Source: Nitrospira sp. (GTDB lineage: Bacteria > Nitrospirota > Nitrospiria > Nitrospirales > Nitrospiraceae). Taken from it: 58,696 nucleotides of DNA. Shown here in pieces: positions 1 to 19,459 of the stretch (positions within the stretch are counted from its first letter, which is position 1; the number at the start of each line of letters is the position of its first letter). The notes beneath the pieces are model-generated. The model saw nothing but the letters and a program-made list of their open reading frames with translations. It was not told the origin of the DNA and did not search any database. Location: assembly GCA_013140455.1 (NCBI GenBank), contig JABFSU010000089.1, forward strand, positions 1 to 58,696, read 5' to 3'. Both the position numbers and the translations under genes were made by a program.

Positions 1-840
1 GCCTTCCAGGTTCGTCGAGGCCAGGTTCGCCTTGGTATTCTGCCCAATGCCCACGTTGGTCACCGCTTGCCCCACCGCCGTGTTGACCGACGCGCCCTTG
101 AGGGTACTCCCTTCCAGGTTCGTCGAGGCCAGGTTCGCCTTGGTATTCTGCCCAATGCCCACGTTGGTCACCGCTTGCCCCACCGCCGTGTTGACCGCCG
201 CGCCCTTGAGGGTACTCCCTTCCAGGTTCGTCGAGGCCAGGTTCGCCTTGGTATTCTGCCCAATGCCCACGTTGGTCACCGCCTTGCCTTGAGATATGTT
301 AACGGCAGCTCCTTCAATCTGACTACTCTTTAGATCCACTGCACCAAGATTGGCAGTTGTTCCATTTCCTATCGAAACGTTTGTAGCTGCCTGGCCGACT
401 GGGACATTGATCACTGCGCCCTTTACTTCCGATGCCTTCATTTTCACAGACCCAAGGTTTGACCTAGTATCATTACCTACTGCGACATTGGTCACGGTTT
501 TGCCTCCGGGAGTATTCGATATCACCCCAGTGAGCTTACTCCCGTCACTCTTAACAGACCCAAGATTTGCCTCACTCTTTTCACCGATACTGATGTTGAC
601 TGCATTTTGACTGGTTGGGACGTTGACAATGGCTCCCTTGACCTCACTATCAGCCAATTTTACGGTACCAAGATTTGCTTCGCTGCCTTTCCCGATTCCA
701 ACGTTGACAGCATTCTTGCCTTCCATCGTATTAATCACTGCTCCCTTAATCTCCGAGCCGGCAAAAACAGGAGGAGAACAGAGGAAAACCGCGCAGCTAA
801 CAACCAACACGGTCATTTTTGATAGGTTGCTTGTGTTCAC
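1..840 (-). CDS. Exported protein of 36-residue tandem repeats (3' end outside window)
   Basis: An open frame of 280 codons runs from a GTG at 840 off the left edge. The start is chosen for AGGAGGG five bases upstream. Residues 1-27 are a signal peptide with a hydrophobic core and a likely cut after VFA. The rest is exactly seven units of 36 residues with the pattern S-x-[IVL]-K-G-A-x-x-N, then A-V-T-N-V-G-I-G, then A-N-L. The first units are diverged and the last ones are almost identical. Regular spacing of small, hydrophobic and Asn residues suggests a beta-solenoid surface protein, perhaps an adhesin; this is inference from pattern only. I do not recognise the family. It points the same way as the two FecR genes at 1689-7241 and probably belongs to the same surface system. 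It has no counterpart in a conventional ORF list because it is open at the edge. Confidence 0.8.
   Translation of the reverse strand, partial: MNTSNLSKMTVLVVSCAVFLCSPPVFAGSEIKGAVINTMEGKNAVNVGIGKGSEANLGTVKLADSEVKGAIVNVPTSQNAVNISIGEKSEANLGSVKSDGSKLTGVISNTPGGKTVTNVAVGNDTRSNLGSVKMKASEVKGAVINVPVGQAATNVSIGNGTTANLGAVDLKSSQIEGAAVNISQGKAVTNVGIGQNTKANLASTNLEGSTLKGAAVNTAVGQAVTNVGIGQNTKANLASTNLEGSTLKGASVNTAVGQAVTNVGIGQNTKANLASTNLEG
4..281. repeat. 108-bp tandem repeats, nearly identical
   Basis: Units begin at 4, 112 and 220, giving a period of 108 bp (36 codons). Units 1 and 2 differ at one position that I can see (GAC/GCC on the plus strand, changing Ser to Ala). Unit 3 matches for about 62 bp before diverging. 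The array continues past the left edge. Older units of the same period, up to about 756, are recognisable only at protein level, which points to recent expansion at the distal end. Confidence 0.95.
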
Positions 841-1278
841 GTTAGCCCTCCTACGTTTTTGGCCAAGCCATCATATGTAGAAAATCTCTTCAGCCTATTC
901 GAGAGACTCAAACCTGCTCCAGAAATCCAGAAGCGCCGCCACTAATGACACCTTAGGACCGGCGATCTTTAGCAGGGCGGTCACGCCCACGAAAGGCGTT
1001 ATATCATGTACAAGTACTCATTTAGATGGAGGATTTTTGCTCTCATTCATACAAAGAGTCAAGCTCAATTTGGCGAGCCAAGAGCTGAATTTCTAATGAA
1101 ATACGCCACAGCAGTCCCAGTCTAGAGTTTCCAGCGATTCCGTTTTTTCGACGGATTGTACCGAGTTGGACAGGAGCAGGAGCCAGGCAGAGCATGGTCT
1201 GTGACAGAAACGCTTGATTTCTTTCCGACTGTTCCCGTTTGTTCTCGTTTGCAGTCACAGACTGGGACGGCACAGAAC
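841..1278. other. 438-bp divergent non-coding region
   Basis: This stretch separates the leftward repeat-protein gene from the rightward lipoprotein gene. It holds the ribosome binding site of the repeat gene (844-850) and the promoter-like element at 996-1017. The weak ORFs that cross it have no start signal or recognisable product. I see nothing else in it. Confidence 0.6.
996..1017 (-). promoter_or_regulatory. Candidate promoter/operator of the repeat-protein gene
   Basis: Read leftward, the sequence is GTACTTGTAC-ATGAT-ATAACGC. It contains a good -10 hexamer (TATAAC, 1003-998) just after an inverted repeat of two GTAC halves. The same arrangement, GTAC-AA-GTAC-AT followed by ATAACGC, occurs at 7356-7380 ahead of the TPR-barrel gene. 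No convincing -35 box is visible, which would fit an activator-dependent promoter. The function is inferred. Confidence 0.45.
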
Positions 1279-1656
1279 ATGCTGAAGCCTGCTCAGCCCA
1301 TGACTTCCCTGACCACAACCACACGAACACTGATTATCCTGCTCGCAGCGCTTCTGCCGCTGCTCTCAACAGGCTGCAGCGCGACACCCGGGCGTTACGT
1401 CGAAGAACACGAAATCAAGCAGCTGACCGTCGTGTTCCTCGACGAAGCGAGCCTGCACGAACAGTGGAGCAAAATCGCCGGGCGAGAGGCAGTCCGCCTG
1501 ACCGTGCCGATGAACAGCCAAACGCCGATCGTCAAGACCGTCCGCGGCTTCTACGATTATTCCTCCAACACCCTGTATTGCGAGAAGTGGAACTTCGAAG
1601 TGTGTGGACACGAACTCCATCACGCCGCACTCGGGCAGTTTCATCCACAACACTAA
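1279..1656 (+). CDS. Small lipoprotein with HExxH motif
   Basis: This encodes 125 residues from the ATG at 1279; 1300 is an alternative in-frame ATG. A hydrophobic stretch ends in the lipobox LSTGC, so Cys33 would be lipidated and the protein anchored to a membrane facing the periplasm. The C-terminus carries CGHELHHAALGQFHPQH. His111-Glu112-x-x-His115 matches the zincin HExxH motif, with further His at 122 and 125 as possible third ligands. Two Cys near the motif (in LYCEKW and FEVCGH) may form a disulfide. The length is very short for a protease, so a metal-binding or degenerate peptidase-like role is equally possible. It is tail to tail with the first FecR gene. Confidence 0.7.
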   Translation: MLKPAQPMTSLTTTTRTLIILLAALLPLLSTGCSATPGRYVEEHEIKQLTVVFLDEASLHEQWSKIAGREAVRLTVPMNSQTPIVKTVRGFYDYSSNTLYCEKWNFEVCGHELHHAALGQFHPQH

Positions 1657-1688
1657 ACCTCTCAGTAGCCTTCCTCAGATCCTCGCTT

Positions 1689-4370
1689 TTACTTTTTCAC
1701 GACGGATGTCCCGTTGATCGTCAAAGTAGATCCGCTGTCCACTTTGAACAAGGCCGCGTTCGATGCAATGTTCACCGTTGAAGTAGCCGGCCCCGCAAAC
1801 ACATTAAACGTACTTGGCAACATCACATTGCCCGTTACTCCCGCCACCTTCAGCGTCGTGCCGTTCCCCAATTGGAAGGGTTGATTGGCGCTATTGACTA
1901 AGACGCCACAGGCCGCATTACAAAAGCTGTTCGTGATCGAAAGTGTGTTAGCGCCACTCCCAAAGACACCGAAGGCATTGCCATTGAGATTCAGTGCCGA
2001 GTTGCCCGTTAGATTGAACAGCGCGCCGTTGCTGATCGTCAGCGTGCTACCGCCTGTCAAGGAGAACAGGTACCCGTTCACCGTCCCGGTTGCCGCATTC
2101 AGATTTAGGAGATGTCCGTTCTGGATAAGCAATTGAGACGCATTGAGGGCGACGAGGGCACCATTCACCAACATCGCCTGGGTATTGGGACCACCCTGCC
2201 CGGCCAGATCTGCGAAATGGCTGGAGGTTGTCATCGTCGCATTCGTGAGGGCCAGCAGTGGCGCCGACGCCTCCAAGAGCGCCCCGTCCAACGGGATCGT
2301 CGAGCGAACCACGACCGCAGACGTCACCTTCACATCGGGCGTAGCGCCTGGCGTCGCGTTGCCATCTCTGTCGAAATGGGATCCGGCTGCGATATCGATG
2401 AGCGGGATTGAGCCTCCAGGGCCTTTGAGCTTGGCGTCTAGCACACTGAGCAAGGCCTTGTTACCACCATTGGTATCGATAGTGCTCCCGTCATAGACCC
2501 CGAGCAGCCGATCCTGCACTGTGACGGAGGTGGTCACTCCATTGTTCGGCCCGTTGATGACGGATAGCAGCGAGCCGGTGAACTTGGCATCTGAGCCACC
2601 CACGTTTCTAAAGTAATTATCTGTCGCTGCCGTCGTGCCGATGGTTGCTTTCGTGCCTTGATCCAGCGTCACACCGCCGGTAAGGTTCACAACGGGAATG
2701 GCAGTGGAACTCGTCGCCGTGATCGCGCCGTCGACATGACTCACACCATTCCCTAGCTGATCAATCGCAATCCCATTTGGAGAGGGGGTTGAAATGCTGG
2801 AATACTGCCCCATAGTTCCGCCTGCAAACGCGTCTCTAGCCCCAAAAGCATTCAAGACAGGGATTGATTCTGACTGAACAATGAAGGTGCTGTTTGCAGC
2901 AACAACTTCTCTTGGTGGCCCACTGTCGTTAAATCCTATACTGAACGGCACGGGAGCGCGATCAGATGGATAGAGTCCATTTGCTCCAGAAAACCCCCCA
3001 TTAGTCGAGGCCAAGTTGGTAAAACTTGTCACAGTAGAGTTCGCCGCCTGCGCGGCTCCACGTACAATCAGGGTTTCAGTCGGAGCAATTCCTCCGTGCC
3101 CACTATTGGGTGTCCCGCCTATAAGCACTAACTCTTTAACAACAGAGAATTGGCTCGTAACCGACGGCACTGGTTCAAACGTCAGATTCGGCTGGAGCTT
3201 ATTGGTATTGGGATCGACACAGCTAACTGAAGCACACGGTGTACCATTAAACAGCGGTTGAACCGGGTCCTTTCTTGTGAATACCAGCAGCGAATTCCCG
3301 CCATTTACTCTCACGCTTAATCCTCTTGCGGCGGGAGCGGCACCGAATCCCGAGTTATTATTGCCCCCATACCCTGTTCCCGACGTATTTGTGACCCCGC
3401 CGGATGTCGGATTCGAAGTGCTCCCGCTGCCGAACAACGCATTGGCTACTGCGTTCGCCAGGGCCACGCCGCCCGTCGCGCCGTTAATGGCGTTCTTACT
3501 CTGATCGCCGCTACTCGTCTGGCCTTCCCCCGTCTCTGCCGCGCCGGTCAGCGCGTTGCCGAGTTGGGTCGCTTGATCCACCTGCAACGCCACGAGATTG
3601 TCCATGCCTTCTTTCGGCGTGCTGCGGTGTCCCGCCGTTGCCACCACGCCAGACTTCAGCGTGTCCGGTGCGGTGATTCCCGCGATAGGTCCCGCCTGGC
3701 CACCCTGCAAGGTGATGGCCTGGCCACTCTGCAGGGTCACGCCTTTGGCTCCGGGTCCTGTCCCAACAATCTCCGCGAGTCCTTCTTCGACTTGAATGAT
3801 CTCGCCACGAGTCAGAGACAGCGCCGCCACGATTGTAGGGGAATAGGAAGCCAGATAGGGCCGCGCCTCTCCCGTCGGGATCTGATCTGCCGCGCGCACC
3901 GGCGCATCGACCAGCACGCGGACAATGCCGCCGCGAGTCTGCACTTGCCCGGTCGGGGTCTGCACCGTCACGAGGCCCTGCTCACCGAGCGCTGAAGCCG
4001 CCGCCGCCACCCGCACGGTGCCTTTGCTGACTTGAATAGTGGTCTGTTCGGGCGTCATCGTCGTCAACTGTACGGACGTCCCCTGCCCCACGGTCACGAC
4101 GGCCCGGTTTCCGATTAACACCTCGGCCATCGTCCGGTCGCCGGTCGTGAGCCGATCGCCGGCCGCGACGCCCTCGCGAAACTGCAGCGTCTTCGTCCCT
4201 GCCCCATTCTGCAGCGTCAGCTGGTCGCCGCTTAACGCGGACACGACCACCCGCCGCGTGGCTTCGATCCGGACGCCGCGTTGATCCGCCGCCCATAAGA
4301 CCGCCGGTCCGAGCAGTTGAGTCGTAATCAACGACACCGCGATAAGGCAGGATGGCCGATGGCGATACAT
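1689..4370 (-). CDS. FecR-domain exported beta-helix-like protein, copy 1
   Basis: The product is 893 residues. The ATG at 4370 is preferred over a GTG two codons upstream because AAAGGAG lies seven bases before it. A signal peptide ends near LWA-A (about residue 28). A FecR-type domain follows, at about 35-190 (VGQGTSVQLTT, IQVSKGTVRV, VQTRGGIVRVLVD). Next come a Gly/Asn/Ser-rich linker (about 290-350), a copy-specific central region, and a C-terminal half rich in short N/G/T/L motifs (LLNLN, LTISNGALFNL) typical of secreted beta-helices. Here FecR is not the sigma-regulator form: there is no cytoplasmic or transmembrane part and no ECF sigma gene nearby. It lies 69 bp downstream of its paralogue in one leftward unit. 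A surface or matrix role is inferred. Confidence 0.85.
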   Translation of the reverse strand: MYRHRPSCLIAVSLITTQLLGPAVLWAADQRGVRIEATRRVVVSALSGDQLTLQNGAGTKTLQFREGVAAGDRLTTGDRTMAEVLIGNRAVVTVGQGTSVQLTTMTPEQTTIQVSKGTVRVAAAASALGEQGLVTVQTPTGQVQTRGGIVRVLVDAPVRAADQIPTGEARPYLASYSPTIVAALSLTRGEIIQVEEGLAEIVGTGPGAKGVTLQSGQAITLQGGQAGPIAGITAPDTLKSGVVATAGHRSTPKEGMDNLVALQVDQATQLGNALTGAAETGEGQTSSGDQSKNAINGATGGVALANAVANALFGSGSTSNPTSGGVTNTSGTGYGGNNNSGFGAAPAARGLSVRVNGGNSLLVFTRKDPVQPLFNGTPCASVSCVDPNTNKLQPNLTFEPVPSVTSQFSVVKELVLIGGTPNSGHGGIAPTETLIVRGAAQAANSTVTSFTNLASTNGGFSGANGLYPSDRAPVPFSIGFNDSGPPREVVAANSTFIVQSESIPVLNAFGARDAFAGGTMGQYSSISTPSPNGIAIDQLGNGVSHVDGAITATSSTAIPVVNLTGGVTLDQGTKATIGTTAATDNYFRNVGGSDAKFTGSLLSVINGPNNGVTTSVTVQDRLLGVYDGSTIDTNGGNKALLSVLDAKLKGPGGSIPLIDIAAGSHFDRDGNATPGATPDVKVTSAVVVRSTIPLDGALLEASAPLLALTNATMTTSSHFADLAGQGGPNTQAMLVNGALVALNASQLLIQNGHLLNLNAATGTVNGYLFSLTGGSTLTISNGALFNLTGNSALNLNGNAFGVFGSGANTLSITNSFCNAACGVLVNSANQPFQLGNGTTLKVAGVTGNVMLPSTFNVFAGPATSTVNIASNAALFKVDSGSTLTINGTSVVKK
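3529..4297. repeat. 769-bp duplicated block, copy 1
   Basis: This block matches 6400-7168 with no difference in a row-by-row comparison (constant offset 2871). It encodes the segment from just after the signal peptide through the FecR domain to the ALTGAAETG region. Identity breaks sharply at both ends. Confidence 0.95.
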
Positions 4371-4439
4371 AGTCACTCTCCTTTGTTAGTCTCAATGAGA
4401 CCCGTGCTGACAATCCTCGATGCCTCGCGACCCCTCTCG

Positions 4440-7241
4440 CTATCGGACCTTCGTCGTGCCGATCGTTAGGGTCGAAGTCTCATCCACATGGAACAGCGCC
4501 GTCGTGCTGGTCCCCATGATGGCCGCGGGACTTCCGCCGGACGCTGCAAAGGGACTGAAGCCGCTGGGCAAAACCACGTTCTTGCTCGTCCCTGCCACCA
4601 GAATCGGGCTGAGTGCTCCTGTTGAAACTCCCACAGGCATTTGGAAGGCCTGGCCCGCACCATTCACCAATTGCCCACAAGATCCGGGCGAGCACAAACT
4701 GTTCTGGACGAACAGCGTATTGGCTCCGCTACCAAATACACCAAAGGCGTTGGCGCCCAGCGTTAACGACGATCCTTTGTTCAAACTAAACAGTGCGCCG
4801 TTGTTGATAGTGAGGGTACTGCCACCGGTCAAGGAGAATAGGTAGCCATTTACCGTCGCGGTCGCCGCATTCAGATTCAGGAGATGTCCGTTCTGGATGA
4901 GCAGCTGTGAGGCATTGAGCGCCACCAGCGCATCGCCGAGCTTAATCGATTGCGCCTGATTGCCGGCTAAGTCGGCAAAGTGACTCGCGGTGGTCATGGT
5001 CGCATTCGTGAGGGCCAACAGTGGCGCGGACGCCTCTAATAGCGCCCCGTCCAGCGGGATCGTCGAGCGGACCACCACCGCAGACGTCACTTTGACATCG
5101 GGTGCAGAACCATCGGTCGTAGTCACCGTCCGGGGCTTGTCCGGCGTGACCAGTTCATCTGGATCAATCGCGAAATGTTTTCCATTCGCGATATCGATGA
5201 GCGGGATCGACCCTCCAGGACCTTTGAGCTTGGCATCCAGCACGCTCAGCAAGGCCTTGTTGCCACTCCCATCGATGCCACACTCTGGATGCCCACCACA
5301 GACAGTGCTCCCATCATAGACACCGAGCAGCCGATCTTGCACCGTCACGGAGGTCGTGACGCCGTTGTTCAGCCCGTTAATGACGGACAGCAGCGAGCCG
5401 GTGAACTTGGCATCTGAGCCACCCACGTTTCTAAAGTAATTATCTGTCGCTGCCGTCGTGCCGATCGTCGCCTTCGTGCCTTGATCCAGCGTCACACCGC
5501 CGGTAAGGTTCACCACGGGAATGGCAGTGGAACTCGTCGCCGTGATCGCGCCGTCGACGTTACTAGTCCCAACATCAGGACCACCACTCTCATTGATAAG
5601 CGCGATCCCGTCTGGATGACTCGAAAATTGACCAAGGGTACCGCCCCTATAGACTGCATCATTACCCGTGGTAGATGTGGTCTGCACGACAAAGGTGCTA
5701 TTTGACGCCACAGCCTCAGGTGCTGCCTGCCCCGTACCCAAACTACCCCCTCCTGCCGCGATATCATGAGGATATAGCCCACCCTCAAAGCCGCCAGTGC
5801 CTCTGCCGGGAAAGAAAGCAGCCACATTCGTAAAATTCTCTCCAGTGAATGTTGCCGCCGCTCCACGTACAACCAATCTCTCGTCAGGGACGATCCCACC
5901 ATGACCGGTATTGCCTGCACCGCCAATCAGAACAAGCTCTTTCACAATGGTGAACTCACTCTGAATCGATTTGAATGCCTTAAACTCTACATTTCCAGTG
6001 TCACCGGGAATAATGTGTCCGTTGTATCCATTCAGGTGGAAGCACTGCAGGTCTCTACAAACTTCACCCTTGAAGTAGGTCGTGCTAATGCCACCGCCAA
6101 AATCTATGGTGAAGTCCTTTTTCACGTAGCCTGCAACAGCGTCCATTCTGGTAAAGGCGAGCAGTGCATTGCTTCCATTGAGATTCACGGGGGCTCCAGC
6201 AAAACTGCGCACCGTAAATCCCGAGTTGCTATTACCCCCATACCCAGCCCCTGTCGTATTTGTGATCCCGCCGGATGTCGGATTGGCTGTGCTGCCGTTA
6301 CCAAACAGCGCATTGGCTACTGCATTCGCCAGCGTCACGCCGCCGGTGGCGCCGTTGAGGGCTTTGCCACTTTCGTCCTTCTTCCCTGACTCGCCTGCGC
6401 CCGTCTCTGCCGCGCCGGTCAGCGCGTTGCCGAGTTGGGTCGCTTGATCCACCTGCAACGCCACGAGATTGTCCATGCCTTCTTTCGGCGTGCTGCGGTG
6501 TCCCGCCGTTGCCACCACGCCAGACTTCAGCGTGTCCGGTGCGGTGATTCCCGCGATAGGTCCCGCCTGGCCACCCTGCAAGGTGATGGCCTGGCCACTC
6601 TGCAGGGTCACGCCTTTGGCTCCGGGTCCTGTCCCAACAATCTCCGCGAGTCCTTCTTCGACTTGAATGATCTCGCCACGAGTCAGAGACAGCGCCGCCA
6701 CGATTGTAGGGGAATAGGAAGCCAGATAGGGCCGCGCCTCTCCCGTCGGGATCTGATCTGCCGCGCGCACCGGCGCATCGACCAGCACGCGGACAATGCC
6801 GCCGCGAGTCTGCACTTGCCCGGTCGGGGTCTGCACCGTCACGAGGCCCTGCTCACCGAGCGCTGAAGCCGCCGCCGCCACCCGCACGGTGCCTTTGCTG
6901 ACTTGAATAGTGGTCTGTTCGGGCGTCATCGTCGTCAACTGTACGGACGTCCCCTGCCCCACGGTCACGACGGCCCGGTTTCCGATTAACACCTCGGCCA
7001 TCGTCCGGTCGCCGGTCGTGAGCCGATCGCCGGCCGCGACGCCCTCGCGAAACTGCAGCGTCTTCGTCCCTGCCCCATTCTGCAGCGTCAGCTGGTCGCC
7101 GCTTAACGCGGACACGACCACCCGCCGCGTGGCTTCGATCCGGACGCCGCGTTGATCCGCCGCCCATAGCAGCGCAGGACCACCAAGCTGTGTCGCAACC
7201 AACAATCCAACCATCGCACGAGACGTTCGATGCACATGCAT
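4440..7241 (-). CDS. FecR-domain exported beta-helix-like protein, copy 2
   Basis: The product is 933 residues. The ATG at 7241 is chosen because AAGGAG sits eight bases upstream; the GTG three codons earlier is too close to it. The layout is as in copy 1: signal peptide ending at LWA-A, FecR domain to about residue 190, an N/G/T-rich linker, a variable middle, and a C-terminal repetitive beta-helix-like half. The N-terminal ~255 residues after the signal are identical to copy 1. The module SNVDGAITATSST to YDGST is nearly identical. The middle region differs and carries its own Cys pairs (CRDLQC, CGGHPEC, CSPGSC), possible extracellular disulfide loops. It is divergent from the TPR-barrel gene across a 175-bp promoter region. 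Secretion through that barrel is a hypothesis. Confidence 0.85.
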   Translation of the reverse strand: MHVHRTSRAMVGLLVATQLGGPALLWAADQRGVRIEATRRVVVSALSGDQLTLQNGAGTKTLQFREGVAAGDRLTTGDRTMAEVLIGNRAVVTVGQGTSVQLTTMTPEQTTIQVSKGTVRVAAAASALGEQGLVTVQTPTGQVQTRGGIVRVLVDAPVRAADQIPTGEARPYLASYSPTIVAALSLTRGEIIQVEEGLAEIVGTGPGAKGVTLQSGQAITLQGGQAGPIAGITAPDTLKSGVVATAGHRSTPKEGMDNLVALQVDQATQLGNALTGAAETGAGESGKKDESGKALNGATGGVTLANAVANALFGNGSTANPTSGGITNTTGAGYGGNSNSGFTVRSFAGAPVNLNGSNALLAFTRMDAVAGYVKKDFTIDFGGGISTTYFKGEVCRDLQCFHLNGYNGHIIPGDTGNVEFKAFKSIQSEFTIVKELVLIGGAGNTGHGGIVPDERLVVRGAAATFTGENFTNVAAFFPGRGTGGFEGGLYPHDIAAGGGSLGTGQAAPEAVASNSTFVVQTTSTTGNDAVYRGGTLGQFSSHPDGIALINESGGPDVGTSNVDGAITATSSTAIPVVNLTGGVTLDQGTKATIGTTAATDNYFRNVGGSDAKFTGSLLSVINGLNNGVTTSVTVQDRLLGVYDGSTVCGGHPECGIDGSGNKALLSVLDAKLKGPGGSIPLIDIANGKHFAIDPDELVTPDKPRTVTTTDGSAPDVKVTSAVVVRSTIPLDGALLEASAPLLALTNATMTTASHFADLAGNQAQSIKLGDALVALNASQLLIQNGHLLNLNAATATVNGYLFSLTGGSTLTINNGALFSLNKGSSLTLGANAFGVFGSGANTLFVQNSLCSPGSCGQLVNGAGQAFQMPVGVSTGALSPILVAGTSKNVVLPSGFSPFAASGGSPAAIMGTSTTALFHVDETSTLTIGTTKVR
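6400..7168. repeat. 769-bp duplicated block, copy 2
   Basis: This is the identical partner of 3529-4297. The flanks, including the signal-peptide codons, are clearly diverged. That favours gene conversion, or selection-free recent exchange, over a simple recent whole-gene duplication. Confidence 0.95.
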
Positions 7242-7355
7242 GGCGATCACTCCTTAGTTCAGGTGAAACAAGTCCGAATCACGATATCGAGCCGGTCAGC
7301 CCTCTTGACAGTTTCCTTCGTTCCCAGGTACAGAAGGCCCCAGCGCCATGAATAC

Positions 7356-7389
7356 GTACAAGTACATTTATTCATAACGCATATATACT
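7356..7389 (+). promoter_or_regulatory. Candidate promoter/operator of the TPR-barrel/CHAT operon
   Basis: GTACAAGTAC (7356-7365) is followed by ATTTATTC and ATAACGC (7374-7380), then TATACT (7384-7389). TATACT could be a -10 box with the GTAC repeat at the -35 position. The element shares GTAC-NN-GTAC-AT and ATAACGC with the one at 996-1017, which implies a common regulator. This is inferred from two sites only. Confidence 0.45.
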
Positions 7390-7416
7390 CATATTTGAGG
7401 AAGGAAGGTGTCACAG

Positions 7417-9108
7417 ATGAGGGCTAATCGTCAAGGGATCATCAGTGCTACTGGCCATGTTGCGGGAATTTCTCTCATGACCGGCCTGTTCATTCTTGCG
7501 CTGCTCGCGACGGCGTCACTCTCTTCACCCCTCTGGGCCGCCGAGACGCCGCAAGCCGAAGCGGATGTGTTGGTGGCTCAAGGAGTGCTGGCCTATGACG
7601 ACCGGGACTATGAGAACGCTCTCGCCCTCTTCAAGAAGGCCCTGACGTCCAATGCGAAACATCCCCGCGCGCTCTATTACTCGGGGTTGGCCTATCTGGC
7701 GCTGAAACAACCCGCCGATGCGGTGACGGCGCTCGAAGCGGCGAAACAGGCGCAACCTTCTGATCCTGCGATCGCATCTCAATTGGGTGTGGCCTACTTC
7801 ACGGCGGGGCGCTATGACGACGCCACCCTGCTCCTGGAACAGGCCTACCAGGCTGACCCCTCTTCAGAGAACTTGGGTTACTTTGTCGGCTTGAGCCGCT
7901 ACCGGCAGAAAAATTACAAGCAGGCGATCGAGGCCTTCAACACCACGAAAACCACCGATCCGAACGTCCAGCAGCTTTCCCGTTTCTACCGCGGACTGTC
8001 GCTCGGTGTCTTAGGCTTGCCGGAACAGGCCTCGGCAGAGTTGCGTCAACTAGAAGGCACCGGGGCCAATCTTCCTTTTACCGGTCAGGCGCTGCAAATT
8101 CAGCAAGCGCTGGCCGCCGGCCGCAAGCCCGACGAGACGAAACGTTTGAGCTTGCAAGTGAGTGTGGGCGGATTCTACAGCGACAACGTGGCGATCAATC
8201 CGCGGAATCCCGGTACGACGCCCGATGCCAACACCAACGACCTGCTTCGGTCTTTGAATAGCCGCAAGACCACATCGCCGGGGGTCTTGGGATCTCTGGT
8301 TGCCGATTATTCCTTCTATCGCGACGGGCCATTCGAGGCCACTGTGAATTATGCGTTCTTGCAGACCGCGAATCTGGCTGACAGCTTGAATGCCTTCAAT
8401 ATCCAGAGTCACTTGCCGGGGATCAGCGGATTCTACCGCGGGACGGTGGCGGATCTTCCGTTTCAGATTGCCGCCCAATATACCTACAACTACATCCTTC
8501 TCAACGATGCAGGGTTCATGTCAGCCCACAGTCCGACTCTCACAGCCTCTATCGTGCCCCCCTCATTCACCTTGCCGCTGGTCGGCTCCGTCGGCAACCT
8601 CACGAGTGTGATCACCCGGTGGCAGAAGAAGGAGTTCTATCGTGAGCCGGTGGCCCTCGACACCCGGTTCTCGAGCGAGCAACGCGACGCCTTCAACACG
8701 ATGTTCGGCTTCGTCCATGCCTTCCGCTTCGCGCAGGATAAACAGATCCTGCGCATCGGTTATCAATACGACGACGAGCGCGCCACCGGCGGCGCCTTTT
8801 CCTACAAGGGCCATCGCGGCCAGGCGGGGCTGCAATCCGCCCTGCCCGTCGCCGACATGATCTTTCGCTACGACTACGACATCCATTTCCGCGACTACAC
8901 AAACACGCAGTCACTCTTCAAAGATTTCAGCGGACAACTGAGCAAGCGTGTCGATACGCAACAGACCCACAGCGCGCAGCTGGTCTACCCCTTCAACGAC
9001 CACTGGTCGGTGACTGCGCAGTACCAGCGCGTTTTCAACAAGAGCAATGTACCGCTCTATGACTATGTGCAGAATGTCTATACTGGTCTGGTGACCTGGA
9101 CCTATTAA
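7417..9108 (+). CDS. TPR protein with C-terminal outer-membrane beta-barrel (Slam/DUF560-like)
   Basis: The product is 563 residues from the ATG at 7417; the in-frame GTG at 7408 also has a purine-rich leader. A signal peptide ends at LWA-A. Four to five TPR units follow, at about 40-220 (ALYYSGLAYLALKQPADAV, QLGVAYFTAGRYDDA). From about residue 240 amphipathic strands with alternating aromatics run to the end (FYSDNVAINPRNPGTT, IGYQYDDERA). The final residues TWTY resemble a barrel-terminal aromatic signal. Periplasmic TPRs plus a barrel are the layout of surface lipoprotein assembly modulators (type XI secretion) and related exporters. I cannot tell whether this is a true member. It is co-transcribed with the CHAT gene (46-bp gap) and divergent from the FecR genes, so moving those proteins to the surface is a reasonable guess. 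Confidence 0.75.
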   Translation: MRANRQGIISATGHVAGISLMTGLFILALLATASLSSPLWAAETPQAEADVLVAQGVLAYDDRDYENALALFKKALTSNAKHPRALYYSGLAYLALKQPADAVTALEAAKQAQPSDPAIASQLGVAYFTAGRYDDATLLLEQAYQADPSSENLGYFVGLSRYRQKNYKQAIEAFNTTKTTDPNVQQLSRFYRGLSLGVLGLPEQASAELRQLEGTGANLPFTGQALQIQQALAAGRKPDETKRLSLQVSVGGFYSDNVAINPRNPGTTPDANTNDLLRSLNSRKTTSPGVLGSLVADYSFYRDGPFEATVNYAFLQTANLADSLNAFNIQSHLPGISGFYRGTVADLPFQIAAQYTYNYILLNDAGFMSAHSPTLTASIVPPSFTLPLVGSVGNLTSVITRWQKKEFYREPVALDTRFSSEQRDAFNTMFGFVHAFRFAQDKQILRIGYQYDDERATGGAFSYKGHRGQAGLQSALPVADMIFRYDYDIHFRDYTNTQSLFKDFSGQLSKRVDTQQTHSAQLVYPFNDHWSVTAQYQRVFNKSNVPLYDYVQNVYTGLVTWTY

Positions 9109-9154
9109 ACGACAGGGGACTCGGCCGCAGCTCGCAGAACGCGAGGGGAGACAG

Positions 9155-12100
9155 ATGCTGAACCGCGCGCAATGGGGACGGGCGAACCACTTCCTTCGCT
9201 CGACTTTCCTTGAATCCTCTCCTCATGGCTTTGCTCCGCTTCATGGGCTTCGGCCTGCAGGGACAGGGAGACTCCACCTCACCCTGTCCCTGCTCATTTT
9301 GCTCTTCACCGCCTGTTCGACCACACAGACTCCGCCACTCACGTCCTCCTCGCCGGACCATCCAGCCCATTCCCAGTTACTACAAGAGGCCACCGCGGCC
9401 TATGAACGCGCCCGATCCCTCTTCGAGCAGGGCCGCTATGCCGACGCCTTAGTGCCGGCCCAGCAAGCGGTGGCACTTCGTGAGCGGGTGCTCGGCCCGA
9501 CCCATGGCGATGTCGCCACGGCACTAACCACGCTGGGATTGATTCATGGGACGCTTATCCAACTCACTCAGGCGACACCCCTGCTTGAGCGAGCCCTGAA
9601 AATACGCCGATCGGCCCTGGGTCCCATCGATCCGAACGTGGGAGAGAGCCTCACCAATCTTGCCACCGTGATGTATGCGGCCGGCGACTTCACCCATGCC
9701 ATTCAGACCCTTGAACAGGGCCTCGCCATTCGTGAACGCGCACTCGGCCCCTCCCATCCCGATGTTGGCGTCACGCTGAGCCATTTGGCCATTGCGCTCC
9801 GGGGGATGAGCCGGTTGGATCAGGCGCGCACGTCTGCCGAACGGGCGATCACCATTCTACGGGCCGCGAATCCGCCTCGCCCAAGGGATTTGGCCATGGC
9901 TGTGAACGTGACCGGCAATATCCTTGGCCGCCAAGGGAACTTTGAAGCCGCCCGCTCGTTGCTTGAGGAATCGTTACACTTATTCGAACAGGCCTCGGGC
10001 TCCCAACACCCCCATGTCGCGGGAGCCCTCCTTCAACTCGGCATGCTTGAAGGGAAGCAAGGCAATTTTTCCGGAGCCATTCCTCTTCTGGAACAAGCCC
10101 TCGTCATCAATGAGCGCAGCTATGGTCCCAATAATCCCGAGGTGGCCGGCACGCTCTATGAAATTGGTCTCGCAGAGTTTGCACTGGGCAAAAACACGGA
10201 CGCGCAGCGACGATTTGAACGAGGCCTTGCGATTCAGAAAGCCACCGTTGACCCTGGACATCCCTTTGTCGCGCTGACCCTCATCGAGCTCGCTGAAGTA
10301 AAACGCCGGCAGAGCGATCCCAACGCCGCGCGCGGCTTGCTGCAACAAGCCCTGCAAATCCAGGAACAATCGCTGGGCCGCGAGCATACGTCCGTCGCGC
10401 AGACCTTGACCAGCCTCGGATATCTGGAAGCGCAGAGCACTCATTTCTCCTCTGCCGAATCGTATTTCGACCGAGCGGTGAAAATTCGCGAGAAGAGCTT
10501 AGGCCCCGTCCACCGTGATGTCGCAGCCAGTCTCCTGGACCTCGCCCGCGCCAAGCACGCGGGTGGCCAGTTAATTGCGGCTCGCCCCTTATACGAACGC
10601 GCCCGATCGATTCTTCAATCTCAGCAAGGGCTCAACCCGGGACTCGACGACGAGGCCTTGAGCCGGATTTGGAAAAAAGACTTGAAGGGGCTCCAGGACT
10701 ACGCCCTTCTACTGTCTGCCATCGCGGGCAATCCCAAACCGAGCGCTGAGCAACAATCGGCCGTGGCCGATGGATTTACCGTCACCCAGCAGGCCCGCGG
10801 GTGGCTGATGCAAGCGGCCGTGGCCAAAGCGCTTGCGCAACGCACGGTGGGAAATCTCGAAGACGTACGGCTCGCAAAACAGGTCGAAGAGCTCCGGCGC
10901 AAACGCCAGGAACTCTGGACGCGCCTGAATGAACTCTATGGGTTGTCCGACGCTCAACGGTCTGCTCAGGAGCTAGCCACGGTGAAGCAGCTCCTCAGCG
11001 AGGATCAACAACAACTCGACCTGGCCGGCGCCCAGTTACAGCTCGCCGCTCCACGCTATGCCGAACTCGCGCAACCGGAAGCCCTCGACCTCGCGCGTGT
11101 CCAACGCCTGTTGCGTCCCGATGAAGCCCTGGTCAGCTTCTACACGCTTGGCGATCGGGTCCAGATCTGGCTCGTGCGCCCAGGGCAGCCGGCACTCTAT
11201 CGTGAAGCTCCTGTAACCCGAGAATGGCTCACCGGCCGGGTCCGGCAGATTCGTGCCAGTCTGCTCCCCAGAGTGCGGCCGGGAAGCGACCAGTCGGTGC
11301 CCGTGCCCTTCGATGTCGACAGCGCCGCAGAACTCTACCGCTTGCTCTTTGCTCCAGTGGCCTCACAACTCCAGGGGATCGAGAACCTAATTGTCGTGCC
11401 CGACGAAGTGCTGCTCCCCCTTCCTCTAGCAGCCCTCCTGACTCAGCGAAGCGGCGAGCCCTTCACCCGTCTCGCTCAACTCTATCGCCTCAAGCAGACG
11501 CCCTCTGCAGAGGATTTGGCCTCCTATGCCGCACTGCCGTGGCTGGCAAAGGCCTATCCCTTGACCATCTTGCCATCGGCTTCAGCCCTTACACTCATCC
11601 GCCAATCGGTTGCGCGTCCCCAGGGCCAAGGGGAAGCCTTTCTCGGATTCGGCGATCCGGTCCTCCATGGTCAGGGAAGTCAACGCGGAGGCACCATGGT
11701 CGCAAGCCGCGGAATGCGCGTGGCGGTAGAGTCGTTGCAGGCCTTAGATCAACTCCCGGGAACCCGTGAAGAGTTGCTGACGATCGCGTCTGTCCTGCGT
11801 GTCAAACCCGAGACGAATGTGTTTCTCGGCCAGCAGGCGACAGAGCCGGAAGTGCGGCGGCTCAACGACAGTGGTCGGCTCGGTCAGGCCAAAGTCATCG
11901 CCTTTGCAACCCATGGCTTGCTGGCCGGCGAGGTTCAGGGCGTGACACAACCGGCGCTTGTGCTGACGCCTCCTTCTGTACCGACCGACGATAATGATGG
12001 GCTGCTGTCCATGGAAGATGTGCTTCACCTGAAGCTCCCCAATACAGACTGGGTGATTCTTTCGGCCTGCAATACGGCGGGAGATAACGGAAGCGGGGAA

Positions 12101-12379
12101 AGCCTCTCCGGATTGGCGAGAGCCTTCTTTTTTGCAGGGGCCAAGGCCTTGCTCGTATCACAATGGAGCGTAGACGATGAGGCGACCAAATTTCTGATGT
12201 CCGCCATTTTCACAGCCTACGGAGGTCGGCGATCCTTTCCCGCCAAAGCGTTGCAGGAAGGTATGCTGGCCTTGCTCAATGAGGCTGGGAAAGATCCGGA
12301 GAAACAGTATTTTGCGCACCCCTATGCCTGGGCGGCGTTCTTCCTGGTCGGAGACGGAACCCATCAGACTGCTTTGTAG
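9155..12379 (+). CDS. TPR-CHAT caspase-like lipoprotein
   Basis: The product is 1074 residues; GGGGAG precedes the ATG at 9155. A long N-terminal leader ends in lipobox LFTAC, so Cys54 would be lipidated and the protein would work in the periplasm or at the outer membrane. Nine to ten kinesin-light-chain-type TPRs (42-residue period, e.g. ALGPSHPDVGVTLSHLAIAL) fill about residues 80-510. A helical linker follows, then a CHAT peptidase domain from about 730 to the end. The caspase-fold dyad is present: His920 in FATHG and Cys972 in LSACNTA, with the ARAFFFAGAKALLVSQW element after it. CHAT proteins with TPRs are known as regulated proteases. Most described examples are cytoplasmic, so a lipid-anchored envelope form next to a barrel and two large exported proteins is notable. 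Processing of those proteins is inferred. Confidence 0.85.
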   Translation: MLNRAQWGRANHFLRSTFLESSPHGFAPLHGLRPAGTGRLHLTLSLLILLFTACSTTQTPPLTSSSPDHPAHSQLLQEATAAYERARSLFEQGRYADALVPAQQAVALRERVLGPTHGDVATALTTLGLIHGTLIQLTQATPLLERALKIRRSALGPIDPNVGESLTNLATVMYAAGDFTHAIQTLEQGLAIRERALGPSHPDVGVTLSHLAIALRGMSRLDQARTSAERAITILRAANPPRPRDLAMAVNVTGNILGRQGNFEAARSLLEESLHLFEQASGSQHPHVAGALLQLGMLEGKQGNFSGAIPLLEQALVINERSYGPNNPEVAGTLYEIGLAEFALGKNTDAQRRFERGLAIQKATVDPGHPFVALTLIELAEVKRRQSDPNAARGLLQQALQIQEQSLGREHTSVAQTLTSLGYLEAQSTHFSSAESYFDRAVKIREKSLGPVHRDVAASLLDLARAKHAGGQLIAARPLYERARSILQSQQGLNPGLDDEALSRIWKKDLKGLQDYALLLSAIAGNPKPSAEQQSAVADGFTVTQQARGWLMQAAVAKALAQRTVGNLEDVRLAKQVEELRRKRQELWTRLNELYGLSDAQRSAQELATVKQLLSEDQQQLDLAGAQLQLAAPRYAELAQPEALDLARVQRLLRPDEALVSFYTLGDRVQIWLVRPGQPALYREAPVTREWLTGRVRQIRASLLPRVRPGSDQSVPVPFDVDSAAELYRLLFAPVASQLQGIENLIVVPDEVLLPLPLAALLTQRSGEPFTRLAQLYRLKQTPSAEDLASYAALPWLAKAYPLTILPSASALTLIRQSVARPQGQGEAFLGFGDPVLHGQGSQRGGTMVASRGMRVAVESLQALDQLPGTREELLTIASVLRVKPETNVFLGQQATEPEVRRLNDSGRLGQAKVIAFATHGLLAGEVQGVTQPALVLTPPSVPTDDNDGLLSMEDVLHLKLPNTDWVILSACNTAGDNGSGESLSGLARAFFFAGAKALLVSQWSVDDEATKFLMSAIFTAYGGRRSFPAKALQEGMLALLNEAGKDPEKQYFAHPYAWAAFFLVGDGTHQTAL

Positions 12380-12944: not shown

Positions 12945-13085
12945 TAAGAGAAGTATCAGAGCTAGATGGCCCTATGTGCTCCACAGGCTAATAGCAGTAT
13001 ATTCGGCCCATTCATTCGCTGAGTGTGCGCTATTCATCGCGTCATAGACCTGACGATCATTATTTTTCGGCATCCTACTGAATCG

Positions 13086-15197
13086 ATGCGCATTTTCTTC
13101 CGACGGGTAGCATCCTCTCGATCTCCTTGCGTGCCCTGTTGCCATAGGCCCCTTCCGGCTGCGAACCACTCGAATAGCCCCCTCGCCTTCCGATGGGGAT
13201 TCATCGCCGGCATCCTTGTCGCACTCTGGCCCATTACTTGCGCCGCACAAGACGCAGCACCATCACCACCTCGTGTGTCCTTGCAGACCGAGCAGCAACT
13301 CAAGGAAGAACTCGTGTTCCTGCGTGAAGAAACCGTCGTCACCGCGAACTGGCGGGAGCAACCGATCTCGGAAGCGCCTTCGAACGTCTACGTGATCTCG
13401 GCGGAAGACATCAGGCAGTCAGGCGCGACGGACCTCCCCACACTGCTCCGGCGCGTCCCCGGATTGTCGGTGATCGAAATGTCCGGCGGAGACTTCAACG
13501 TGAGCGCACGCGGGGACAACCAACAGCGGGCCAATCGCATGCTGCTCTTGATCGACGGCCGCTCTTCGTATGTGGATACACAGGGGCTGGTTCCGTGGAA
13601 AACCTTGCCCGTCTCGCTTTTGGAGATTAAGCAAATCGAGGTGCTCAAAGGGCCTGCGTCCGTCATCTATGGATTCAACGCCTTCGACGGCGTGATCAAC
13701 ATCATCACGAAGGATCCACGGGACACTGCCGGCACCACGCTCCAAGCCGGAGCCGGCGAGTATGGCACGGTGCGGACAGCCGCGATTCACGGCGGAAAGG
13801 CCGGCGATCTCGGTTATCGCCTGTCGATCGGCCATGATCAGCAGCAACAATGGCGCGATCGGAACGCACTGGCGTTTCGTGCCGACCGCTTCAATGGGCA
13901 GATGAACTATCTGCTCAATAGCGGCGGGACAGTCCGAGTTGAGGGCGGGGTCATTGATGCCAATCGAGCCGACTTTTCCTCCGGCGATTTCCTGCGGCTC
14001 AACTCTCCCTATACGCTCAGCTATGCCAGAGTCGGCTACGAACGTGACGATTTCTTCGTACGCGCATCCTGGAGCCAAAATAATGTCAGTAGCAGCAACG
14101 AGACTGTTCCTGCGCTGGCGCCTTTTGTGGTCAGCGGCGATAAAAACGGAAACCCCTTCAACATTCCGTTTCTGACCAACAGCTACGATCTGGTCTCCCA
14201 ATACACTCATGCGATCGGCAACACACATCGAGTGACCCTGGGCGCCAATTATCGCCACAACACCTTGTCGGGGACGGCGGTCTCCGGCCTCGGTCAGGAA
14301 AACCGATTCGGAGTCTATCTTCAGGATGAGTGGCGCCTGCTGCAGACCCTGACCCTGACAGCCGGCATACGGATGGATACCCATTCGGAGATTAATCCAA
14401 CGTATAGCCCGCGTGTGGCCTTGATCTATGCGCCGCATCCCAACCACACCATCAGGCTCTCTGGATCGGTTGCCTACAAACCTCCGACGCTGGTCGAAAC
14501 GAACGCGGATCTCCGCACAACGAACACGATCTTCGGATTTTCCACCACCAATGTGGGACAGGGATCGCACAACTTGAAGCCGGAACGGATCACGTCCTAC
14601 GAAGCCGAATACCAGGGCTGGTTCTTCGACCACCGTGCGCGAGTGCGCCTCACGGTATTTGACAACCACATTGCCGACGTCATCGAAGCCGTCGGCCTGT
14701 CGCCCACATTCGGCACCTGGATGAACATTCCAGGTGTGGCCGACATTCAGGGAGCCGAGGCCGGCCTTGAATTTCTGCCCGCCTCATGGCTGAAAGGTTA
14801 CGTCAACTATTCCTATCAGTCGATCAGTCAATCCATCACCGGCGCGGCCCGACGCGGCGGCCCGCGCTCTACACTCAACGGAGGATTGCGCGCCAACTGG
14901 GACAACGGATTGAACGCGGATGCCGCCGTGCATGTTGTCGGCGGAGCCAGTTATCCGATCAGGACGGAAATCTATTCCACCTTCTCGACAATCGGACTGA
15001 TCCCCTCCAGCGCCATTCCCACCGAACGCGTCGACAGCTATACCCTGCTCAATCTTCGCGGAGGCTATCGTTTCTGGAACCAGAAGGCCGAGGTGGCCAT
15101 CTCAGCCTATAATGCCTTGAACGACCGACATCGTGAACATCCATTGGGAGATACGATCGGCAGCCGGGTGATGGGATGGTTTACGCTGACCCTCTAA
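13086..15197 (+). CDS. TonB-dependent outer-membrane receptor
   Basis: The product is 703 residues from ATG 13086; an in-frame ATG 21 codons upstream lacks support. The signal segment is WGFIAGILVALWPITCAAQ. A TonB-box-like EETVVTA precedes a plug domain with the usual elements (SEAPSNVYVISAEDIRQSGA, LLRRVPGLSV, VLKGPASVIYGFNAFDGVIN). The remainder is a 22-strand-type barrel ending FTLTL. The length is typical of the family, and the plug resembles the vitamin B12/catecholate class. The ligand cannot be read from sequence. It heads an operon with a periplasmic binding protein (39-bp gap) and a histidine kinase, which suggests uptake linked to sensing. No ferric-citrate-type N-terminal signalling domain is seen. 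Confidence 0.9.
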   Translation: MRIFFRRVASSRSPCVPCCHRPLPAANHSNSPLAFRWGFIAGILVALWPITCAAQDAAPSPPRVSLQTEQQLKEELVFLREETVVTANWREQPISEAPSNVYVISAEDIRQSGATDLPTLLRRVPGLSVIEMSGGDFNVSARGDNQQRANRMLLLIDGRSSYVDTQGLVPWKTLPVSLLEIKQIEVLKGPASVIYGFNAFDGVINIITKDPRDTAGTTLQAGAGEYGTVRTAAIHGGKAGDLGYRLSIGHDQQQQWRDRNALAFRADRFNGQMNYLLNSGGTVRVEGGVIDANRADFSSGDFLRLNSPYTLSYARVGYERDDFFVRASWSQNNVSSSNETVPALAPFVVSGDKNGNPFNIPFLTNSYDLVSQYTHAIGNTHRVTLGANYRHNTLSGTAVSGLGQENRFGVYLQDEWRLLQTLTLTAGIRMDTHSEINPTYSPRVALIYAPHPNHTIRLSGSVAYKPPTLVETNADLRTTNTIFGFSTTNVGQGSHNLKPERITSYEAEYQGWFFDHRARVRLTVFDNHIADVIEAVGLSPTFGTWMNIPGVADIQGAEAGLEFLPASWLKGYVNYSYQSISQSITGAARRGGPRSTLNGGLRANWDNGLNADAAVHVVGGASYPIRTEIYSTFSTIGLIPSSAIPTERVDSYTLLNLRGGYRFWNQKAEVAISAYNALNDRHREHPLGDTIGSRVMGWFTLTL

Positions 15198-15236
15198 TCA
15201 TCACCTTCCACACGTTCCCGTGATAGGATCTGCGTC

Positions 15237-16235
15237 ATGCCCAGATCGATCCCAACATTTCACTCTCTCGCTCGCGTGGCTCTTTTCCTATGGTTCGGCT
15301 GCGGGGTGATGGTCGCGCTGGACGTTGATGTGCATGCGGCTGAGATCGTCGTCCTGAAATCCAGCGACGTGGGATATTACACGCAGGCCGTTCAAGGGTT
15401 CAGGCAGGCGCTCCCCGCTCATGCGCACATGATCGAATACACGCTGCGCGAAGGGGCAACCGATGCCAGAGAGATTGGACAATCCATTCGCGCAGGGCAT
15501 CCTGATCTGGTCCTTGCCGTCGGCTTGAACGCCGCCCTCACCGCCAAACTCGAAATTCCTGATCTCCCTGTCGTCTTCTGCCTCGTTCTGAATCCGGAAT
15601 TGCACGGACTCCCGGCCGGCAATATGACCGGCGTCTTGATGAAGATTCCACACCAGCAACAACTCGAGAGTATCAAGAGCATCGCCCCCGGCGCGCGCCG
15701 AATCGGCGTGCTCTACGATGAACACCACCAAGCCGCCGCGATCTCCTCGGCTAAACTGCAGGCAAAACTCTTGGGCCTGCAGTTGATCGGAAGCGCGGTG
15801 ACAAAGCGAGGGGGGGTACCGGGAGCACTCATGGCCCTCCTGCCCCAGATCGACCTGCTCTGGGTCCTCCCGGACCACACCGTGGTGACGGACGAATCCC
15901 TTCCGTTTCTCCTGGAGTCCACCTTCGACGCTAAAATCCCCTTGTTCGGATTTTCTTCCACATTCGTCCAGCGTGGAGCGCTTGGCGCCCTGGTCATCGA
16001 ACCCCTCGATGCAGGGACCCAAGCCGCTCAACTGGCTGCGGCGATCCTTCGCGATCCGGCAACCGGCGGCCTGCGGATGGTTCAGCCTAATCACCCAAAA
16101 CTTGTGCTCAATCTGAATACCGCCGAGTATCTCGGCCTCACGATCGCTCCGGATCTCGTGCACATGGCCTCCCGTCTCTATGGAGGGCCCGGAGCCTTCG
16201 CCTCGCAGGGAAACCAGACGAATATCGCGCCCTAA
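15237..16235 (+). CDS. Periplasmic ABC-type substrate-binding protein (PF04392-like)
   Basis: The product is 332 residues. A signal peptide ends near VHAAE. The mature part has the two-lobe pattern of the ABC_sub_bind/TrpX-like family: EIVVLKSSDVGYYTQAVQGF at the N-terminus, DLVLAVGLNAA, ARRIGVLYDEHH at the hinge, and PLFGFSSTFVQRGALGALV in lobe two. No permease or ATPase gene is near, and the next gene, 18 bp downstream, is a membrane histidine kinase. The protein may therefore present a ligand to the kinase rather than feed a transporter. Ligand unknown. The run GGGGGG at about 15808-15814 is in frame and intact. Confidence 0.85.
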   Translation: MPRSIPTFHSLARVALFLWFGCGVMVALDVDVHAAEIVVLKSSDVGYYTQAVQGFRQALPAHAHMIEYTLREGATDAREIGQSIRAGHPDLVLAVGLNAALTAKLEIPDLPVVFCLVLNPELHGLPAGNMTGVLMKIPHQQQLESIKSIAPGARRIGVLYDEHHQAAAISSAKLQAKLLGLQLIGSAVTKRGGVPGALMALLPQIDLLWVLPDHTVVTDESLPFLLESTFDAKIPLFGFSSTFVQRGALGALVIEPLDAGTQAAQLAAAILRDPATGGLRMVQPNHPKLVLNLNTAEYLGLTIAPDLVHMASRLYGGPGAFASQGNQTNIAP

Positions 16236-16253
16236 GTCAGAGAGGCACCTCGT

Positions 16254-18005: not shown

Positions 18006-18040
18006 TCACACGCCCGATGCGCTCGGTCAGGACGGCGCCA

Positions 18041-19459
18041 CTACGCTGATGGCTTTGAGGGAATGTTTTTCTGTTTCATCAGTTTGGTCAGGTAGGTCCG
18101 CTGAAGCTTCAAGGAAGCTGCGGCTTGCGTCTGGTTCCAGCCCGTCCTGCGCAAAGCCTCGGTGATGAGCCACCGGCTATGCGCCTCCATTGAATCGTGA
18201 TAAGGCATCCTCGTCCCTTCAGGAACGGGCGTCGCGCCTTGGGGCGTCACAACGCCTGGAAGCCCAAGTTCCTCGACGCGGATCACCGAACCGTCGGAGA
18301 GGATCACCGCCCGAGCCAATACATTCTCCAATTCACGAATATTCCCGGGCCAATGATAGTGACAGAGGGCTTCCATCGCCCCCGGACTGAGCTGCTTCTT
18401 TTTGACACCACCCCGTGCTCCCTCACGCTCCATGATGTGGCAGGCCAGTACGGGAGTATCTTCCTGGCGTTCCCGGAGCGGCGGAAGCGTCATGGGAAAC
18501 ATGCTGAGCCGATAATAGAGATCTTCCCGAAACGTGCCTTCCTTGACGGCTCGAGGCAGATCCTTGTTCGTCGCAGCAAGGAAACGAATGTCCGCACGAA
18601 TTTGGTGCGTGCCGCCCACTCGGTGAAACTCCCGGTCCTGCAGCAGCCGCAAGAGCCGGCTTTGAAGTGGAAGCGGCATATCGCCGATCTCGTCAAGAAA
18701 GACGGTGCCCCCTTCCGCCGCCTCAATCTTCCCCTCCTGCATGTGCGTCGCCCCGGTGAATGAACCCCGCTCATGCCCGAACAACTCATTTTCCAGTAAC
18801 TGCTCCGGCAACGCCGCGCAATTGACGACCATGAACGGCTTATTCTTTCTCGAACTCCACCGATGAATGGAGCGGGCAAGGAGTTCTTTCCCTGTACCCG
18901 TTTCCCCCTGAAGCAGAATGGTGATGTCCGACACCGCCGCTCGCTTGGCCGCGGTCACGACATCTTTCATCGTGGCACTCTCAGCCACAATCGTGGAATA
19001 GCGCGCATCCAGATCCGAGCGTAGGTGCGTCACTTCCCGTTTGAGGGATTCCCGTTCCAGGACTTTCTGAATCACTATTCCCAAATGGTCGGGATCGAAC
19101 GGCTTGGTAAGAAAGTCGCAGGCCCCCAGCTTCATGGCCTCGACAACCCGATTGACCGTGCCATAGGCCGTCAGAATGATGACGGGAGGGATGGGGTGGC
19201 CGGTCTTTTCAGAAGTCGCATGGGCCTGTTGAGCGATGGTCTTTCCGCGACCATTGAGGCGCTCCAAGACCTCGATCCCGGACAGGATCGGCAATTCAAG
19301 ATCAAGCAACACGAGGGAAGGCGATTCTTGCTGAATCGCAGCGAGGGCTTCCGCTCCGTCTTTTGCAGTGATGGTGTGATGCCCCATCCATTCAAGCCGC
19401 TGTTTGAGGCCTGAGAGGATGTCGGGATCATCATCGACGATGAGAATTTGAGCGGCCAT
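18041..19459 (-). CDS. NtrC-family sigma-54-dependent response regulator
   Basis: The product is 472 residues. The receiver domain (1-135) has acidic DDD at 9-11, phospho-acceptor Asp53 and the LTAYG and KPF switch residues. About 15 extra residues ([15 protein letters not shown] region) lie before the fourth strand. The AAA+ domain has Walker A GETGTGKE, the sigma-54 contact loop written GSFTGA, Walker [12 protein letters not shown] and an arginine finger region (FREDLYYRL). The C-terminus is a Fis-type helix-turn-helix ([20 protein letters not shown]). It follows mtnA by 5 bp with AGGACT before the ATG, so it sits at the end of the long leftward transcript. It is convergent with its presumed kinase. 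Control of the polysaccharide genes is plausible but not shown. Confidence 0.92.

Follow-up and report, generated by a model that had tools for sequence, protein, structure and literature searches.

The 58,696 nucleotides of the window analysed here make up the complete contig G000:C31, part of a Nitrospirota genome, and the relatives recovered by protein searches belonged to Nitrospira and Nitrospirales. The features of the locus are listed in Table 1. The gene content and positions given for nucleotides 1-12379 in a preliminary description of this DNA were confirmed as open reading frames; the lipoprotein gene, which is conserved with the system, had been missed there. Because the window is the whole contig and the repeat gene is cut by its end, that gene is incomplete; no match to it was found in related loci, and it is regarded only as a candidate member of the system. 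The barrel and TPR-CHAT genes are separated by 46 bp, and this gap and the shared direction suggest that they are co-transcribed. A promoter and terminator scan of the locus, including the divergent intergenic region, returned no match above chance.

Table 1. Features of the window locus, and WD40-caspase proteins encoded at the CHAT position in other loci.
Feature	Coordinates	Strand	Remarks
Exported repeat protein, cut by the contig end	1..840	-	108-bp (36-aa) repeats
Lipoprotein, ~100 conserved residues, GHELHHAALGQFH (HExxHxxxGxxH, metalloprotease-like)	1156..1656	+	Kept beside FecR in G033 and G048
FecR protein 1, 895 aa	1689..4376	-	Signal peptide, FecR/PupR-like domain, linker, variable middle, C-terminal beta-helix
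FecR protein 2, 936 aa, tandem paralogue of FecR protein 1	4440..7250	-	
Divergent intergenic region, FecR genes / barrel operon	7251..7407	.	
Outer-membrane TPR-barrel protein	7408..9108	+	Signal peptide, TPR ~45-240, predicted 14-strand beta-barrel 246-566
Exported (predicted lipoprotein) kinesin-light-chain-like TPR and CHAT protease-like protein	9155..12379	+	Dyad H920, C972
WD40 and caspase (Peptidase_C14) proteins in the position of the window's CHAT protein	L171:10882-15084, L173:10869-15071, L021:5817-8822		

Two other groups of genes lie on the same contig. Genes for a TonB-dependent receptor, an ABC-type substrate-binding protein, a histidine kinase and a sigma-54-type response regulator stand in a row (13023-19459) and possibly form a separate uptake or sensing operon. 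A Wzy-dependent exopolysaccharide cluster (20534-46121, minus strand) encodes glycosyltransferases, a Wzx-like protein, Wzy_C, a Wzz/GNVR kinase and Poly_export, and also holds genes for an asparagine synthase and a TylF methyltransferase.

TPRs were detected in the first half of the TPR-barrel protein by a Pfam scan. An AlphaFold2 model built with ten homologues (mean pLDDT 79) placed TPR helices up to about residue 237, followed by 14 long strands from residue 246 to the C-terminus, which bears out the earlier assignment of the C-terminal domain as a barrel. The closest solved barrels to the model were CymA (Z 22.8) and OmpG (Z 20.9), and the TPR part matched YrrB, MamA and PilF. POTRA, ShlB and Omp85 were absent from the listed Pfam matches of the protein. 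The TPR_Slam model scored below its cut-off in the Pfam scan, and a genome search with the PF04575 profile, carried to E = 1, gave no match at the barrel locus.

The nearest barrels are channels, and the first Foldseek hit to the protein, covering both TPR and barrel, was BcsC; together with the Wzy-type polysaccharide cluster on the same contig (~20.5-46 kb), this would fit a TPR-armed porin or a polysaccharide exporter of the PgaA/BcsC kind, with the FecR proteins as periplasmic partners or exported by another route. Such a function is improbable, however. The model has 14 strands, not 16, and the recurrent neighbours of the barrel gene included no recognisable synthase gene. Export of polysaccharide through this barrel is also unlikely because the cluster carries an outer-membrane exporter of its own (Poly_export/SLBB, 45324-46121).

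FecR was the sole Pfam match of the two FecR proteins. PF04773 fell just under its cut-off of 24 in scans of the whole proteins (20.9 and 23.2) and exceeded it in the genome search (26.6 bits for each). The model of FecR protein 1 had an overall mean pLDDT of 48.9, with a low-confidence middle, and only residues ~42-241 and ~710-890 were usable. The first of these parts, the FecR domain, superimposed on the cell-surface signalling domain of PupR (Z 15.9, 134 residues, 2.5 A) and on a Parabacteroides anti-sigma factor (Z 15.8); the match to the cell-surface anchoring domain 5ix9 (Z 6.8) was under the level of a trustworthy match. The second showed the regular strand pattern of a beta-helix, with weak matches to tailspikes and pectate-lyase-like folds. 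PupR uses this fold to bind the periplasmic portion of an outer-membrane receptor, and the shared fold suggests that the FecR domain docks in a similar manner on the periplasmic arm of the barrel encoded next to it.

Beyond the FecR domain, G, S, N, T and P make up 48-80% of the region that follows (37-48% in the whole proteins), and in G048 this region is a long poly-proline run; a linker of such low complexity would suit a chain that spans a pore. Between the paralogous FecR genes of the window, DNA identity is ~100% along ~700 nt of the FecR-domain region, falls to ~45-65% in the middle and increases again closer to the beta-helix. The tandem FecR pair of Ca. N. defluvii, which lies within 1,860,192-1,877,811 of FP929003, is built alike (81-93% over the FecR domain, ~45% in the middle, ~95% near the C-terminus), so that a conserved FecR domain joined to an unrelated middle was found in tandem paralogues of two species. 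This is the pattern expected if the FecR domain were a shared docking or trafficking domain that carries variable surface passengers, because the constant FecR end has been homogenised between paralogues with unrelated middles. A FecR-type beta-helix protein of at least 2,398 aa was also seen beside a TPR-barrel gene at L116:1-7197, its N-terminus lying beyond the fetched stretch.

The protein encoded downstream of the barrel gene matched CHAT (PF12770) with E = 1.4e-51, in addition to TPRs, and is a predicted cysteine protease. Both residues of the dyad described earlier, H920 and C972, are present, and the dyad was invariant in 8/8 relatives checked (window included). The same description had the protein lipid-anchored. 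A plausible lipobox (LLFTAC) is indeed present in the window protein, but lipidation is not a conserved trait: a lipobox was found in 3/8 relatives (window included), and most of the other N-termini were signal-peptide-like. These N-terminal export signals point to a location in the envelope.

In relatives the C-terminal half of the lipoprotein is preserved, with GHELHHA.LGQFH at its end; the true start of its gene is probably downstream of position 1156. No Pfam family matched this HExxHxxxGxxH family, which was found mainly beside large FecR genes and also elsewhere in the genus (13/59 relatives' genomes). A small exported protein, with the motif HLxFLGYQxDxVxQGxRAxHSS and without a Pfam family (L101:16840-17343 and relatives), recurs at large-FecR loci.

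Conservation of the neighbourhood was assessed at 71 TPR-barrel loci across Nitrospirota (70 loci and the window). A FecR gene stood beside the barrel gene in nearly all of the first ten related loci, and over the whole set a FecR open reading frame was found within 1 kb of the barrel gene in 58/71 loci, so that the neighbourhood passes the conservation check set in the preliminary description; several of the remaining loci lie at a contig edge or have FecR 1-3 kb away. In distant classes both genes point the same way, and often they abut or share a few bases. These counts relied on a FecR profile that was trained and refined partly on the neighbours themselves, and an independent check was made with Pfam PF04773 on 12 whole genomes. 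It gave 0-8 FecR genes per genome; in G139 and G200, the single match in the genome was the FecR gene beside the barrel.

The loci fall into a class with large FecR proteins (590-1,400 aa, with a C-terminal beta-helix) and a class with small ones (~250-440 aa). Of the 14 large-FecR loci, 8 have a TPR-CHAT gene (Fisher p about 1e-6) and 9 the HExxH lipoprotein (p about 1e-7), against 0/47 small-FecR loci for either; large-FecR loci are related by descent, so these counts are not independent and the p-values describe the pattern only. The complete genome of Ca. Nitrospira defluvii (FP929003) carries the full gene set with two tandem passengers, and a scan of named genomes placed CHAT beside the barrel also in L162 and L176. 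Pairwise identities were correlated between CHAT and FecR (r 0.94), CHAT and barrel (0.88) and barrel and FecR (0.80; Mantel p <0.001), showing that the three genes are inherited jointly. In small-FecR loci of the distant classes, a recurrent third gene encodes a large secreted multidomain protein.

Another recurrent third gene of small-FecR loci encodes a CHASE2-adenylate cyclase, found near 17/70 barrel genes, and PP2C, FHA and cyclase genes lie near several loci. Along with the FecR/PupR fold, and with a Burkholderia operon of FecR and a CHASE2 histidine kinase that controls biofilm (PMC5192318), these neighbours would be accounted for by trans-envelope signalling of the FecA-FecR-FecI type: the barrel would sense the outside, the docked FecR protein would relay the signal across the periplasm, and an inner-membrane CHASE2 cyclase or another effector would answer, the effector at large-FecR loci being the exported CHAT protein. 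As an account of the system this is unlikely. The pair showed no recognisable sigma factor, TonB plug or STN domain, TPRs standing in place of STN; CHASE2 shows no enrichment among large-FecR loci (2/14), and none lies beside the genes of the window; and large variable passengers would be superfluous. For small-FecR loci, signalling from FecR to CHASE2 is nevertheless a serious alternative, and it may be the ancestral role.

The position past the barrel gene is held by different genes. At eight loci, of which the window is one, the barrel gene is followed after 12-122 bp by the start of CHAT; at seven others the next large gene recognised in that direction encodes a Peptidase_S15 protein, at two a WD40-Peptidase_C14 protein (E about 1e-27), and at two (G048 and G276) a TpsB of the ShlB type with a strong ShlB match. 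G033 has both the WD40-C14 protein and CHAT. In the tree of barrels, loci with CHAT are spread across several deep branches, and S15, C14 and ShlB occupy one branch each. As CHAT, Peptidase_C14 or Peptidase_S15 occupy the same position, a processing or release enzyme is favoured as the predicted product of this gene.

The barrel family is present in 142/396 genomes of the phylum. When an alignment of closer sequences was used as a genome-scan profile, 20 Nitrospirota loci were recovered and one weak match on a PVC-group contig (25% identity); a search of plasmids gave no match. Full-length relatives were found in only 2/35 congeners, and on the barrel tree the window barrel groups with that of G033 and with that of G264, a member of another family, in preference to those of nearer relatives. 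This grouping across families and the scarcity among congeners suggest that the locus has moved by transfer as a cassette.

A patchy cassette that joins taxonomic families, with variable passenger middles, would also be in keeping with envelope defence, in which the beta-helix FecR protein, at the surface or in the periplasm, would detect an attacker and trigger the TPR-CHAT protease as an effector that harms the cell or the intruder; proteases of the CHAT and C14 families often serve as effectors in bacterial conflict systems. The CHAT protein carries export signals, however, its position can hold an S15 hydrolase or a TpsB, and in its small-FecR form the pair is an ordinary part of genomes that comes without effectors of this kind. 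We consider a defence role, although possible, to be improbable.

The analysis established the conservation of the genes and their joint inheritance, the predicted folds, the intact dyad, the export signals and the constant-variable-constant passengers, and the reading that we favour, to which we give about an even chance, is that the locus is a FecR-anchored module of Nitrospirota for cell-surface display and processing, with an envelope cysteine protease. The TPR-barrel protein, with 14 strands and a periplasmic TPR arm, would be the outer-membrane pore or platform. The FecR domain would dock each large FecR protein on the TPR arm, and the passenger, held on a flexible linker and ending in the beta-helix, would reach the exterior via the TPR-barrel itself or via a helper barrel. 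In a next step the exported CHAT protease (C14 caspase-like or S15-type in relatives) would cut the docked FecR protein, leading to its maturation or its release from the surface, by analogy with the action of LapG on LapA. Two steps that were already part of the preliminary description, export of the FecR proteins by the barrel and their cleavage by the CHAT protein, are thus retained as what these proteins may do.

The ShlB-type TpsB encoded beside the barrel in two relatives counts against display through the TPR-barrel, and could be the real exporter in the relatives that carry it. Export would also not be the sole role of the pair, since most FecR partners are small (~250-440 aa) and have no obvious passenger. 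A bolder reading, less likely than not, is that FecR domains serve as transferable modules for docking and retention on TPR-armed 14-strand barrels, that dedicated caspase-like envelope enzymes (CHAT or C14) cut them to release surface adhesins, and that the LapA/LapG logic was in this way invented a second time from different parts.

In the literature searched, no paper was found that joins CHAT with FecR, two-partner secretion or filamentous haemagglutinin, or that deals with Nitrospira together with FecR and CHAT. The FecR and TPR-barrel pair was not found described there as a phylum-wide unit, or in company with envelope proteases of the CHAT/C14 kind and an HExxH lipoprotein. TPR-plus-14-strand exporters, the FecR-CHASE2 operon and a CHAT gene beside a haemagglutinin gene are already known. 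In nitrite-oxidising Nitrospira and relatives, the phylum-wide pair combined with very large surface-type proteins and exported caspase-like proteases has the look of a route not described before for displaying proteins on the cell surface and perhaps for setting them free. If this is true, a set of exporter, cargo and protease would be at hand for a phylum of major nitrifiers about whose cell surface little is known, a role would be assigned to the widespread FecR and TPR-barrel gene pair, and bacterial caspase-like proteases would have a concrete test case in the envelope rather than in cell death.

Several known systems resemble the module in part. In the Slam (DUF560, type 11 secretion) systems, which export lipidated or soluble proteins, an N-terminal TPR domain is followed by a 14-strand outer-membrane barrel, and the gene lies beside that of the cargo (PMC8406197). 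The modelled TPR-barrel has the same arrangement of N-terminal TPRs and C-terminal 14-strand barrel. It lacks a PF04575 match, however, the cargo consists of a FecR domain and a beta-helix instead of a TbpB-type (TbpB_B_D) domain, and protease genes are attached. The use of TPRs in place of POTRA had been put forward as new; no POTRA match was found, but exporters that combine TPRs with 14 strands were already on record (PMC8406197).

Two-partner secretion (FhaB/FhaC, ShlB) likewise pairs a large beta-helical exoprotein having an N-terminal constant domain with an adjoining outer-membrane barrel, and CHAT can adjoin such genes. On a Sphingomonas plasmid (L158:1-10632), genes for a filamentous haemagglutinin, CHAT and a CPBP protease lie in a row near type VI secretion genes, the annotated CHAT gene 8 bp downstream of the haemagglutinin gene. 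The association of CHAT with large exported proteins, presented earlier as unusual, is therefore not confined to this locus. The TPR-barrel differs from the two-partner transporters in having no POTRA or Omp85 match, and the FecR proteins have no haemagglutinin N-terminal domain; a true TpsB is present in two relatives only. Among other CHAT loci on plasmids, those of cyanobacteria and Bradyrhizobium that were examined had no FecR or exporter neighbour. In Pseudosulfitobacter plasmids (L155:7671-10690), a CHAT gene overlaps by 4 bases the gene of a 478-aa protein without a Pfam family, a find matched by 47 Pseudosulfitobacter records.

The FecA-FecR-FecI and PupB-PupR systems share with the locus a FecR fold encoded beside an outer-membrane barrel. 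Here a TPR arm replaces STN, the partner barrel has no TonB-dependent plug, no anti-sigma/sigma pair was recognised, and the passenger is huge; no sigma factor was present among the proteins scanned at the locus end of the window. The FecR-CHASE2 operons of Burkholderia (BiofilmReg, PMC5192318) combine FecR with a CHASE2 protein, as small-FecR loci do. They encode a histidine kinase and a LysM-FecR protein, whereas the Nitrospirota loci encode a CHASE2 cyclase, absent at the window locus, and a TPR-barrel. PgaA and BcsC are 16-strand barrels with TPRs, encoded with a polysaccharide synthase, in contrast to the 14 strands predicted here and the lack of a recognised synthase.

In the LapA/LapG/LapD system, a surface adhesin is held by a periplasmic retention domain and served by a dedicated periplasmic cysteine protease. 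The module as modelled would correspond in its retention domain with flexible linker, its adhesin and its cysteine protease. It departs from LapA/LapG/LapD in the protease, which is of the CHAT, C14 or S15 type, and in the pore, a 14-strand barrel and not TolC; Peptidase_C93 (LapG) was found in 0/8 genomes with the system. Membership in the Slam, two-partner secretion and LapG families was ruled out by the lack of PF04575, POTRA and Peptidase_C93. By analogy, we favour a module that would join export in the manner of Slam or two-partner systems to a release step like that of LapG, and that stands outside those families.
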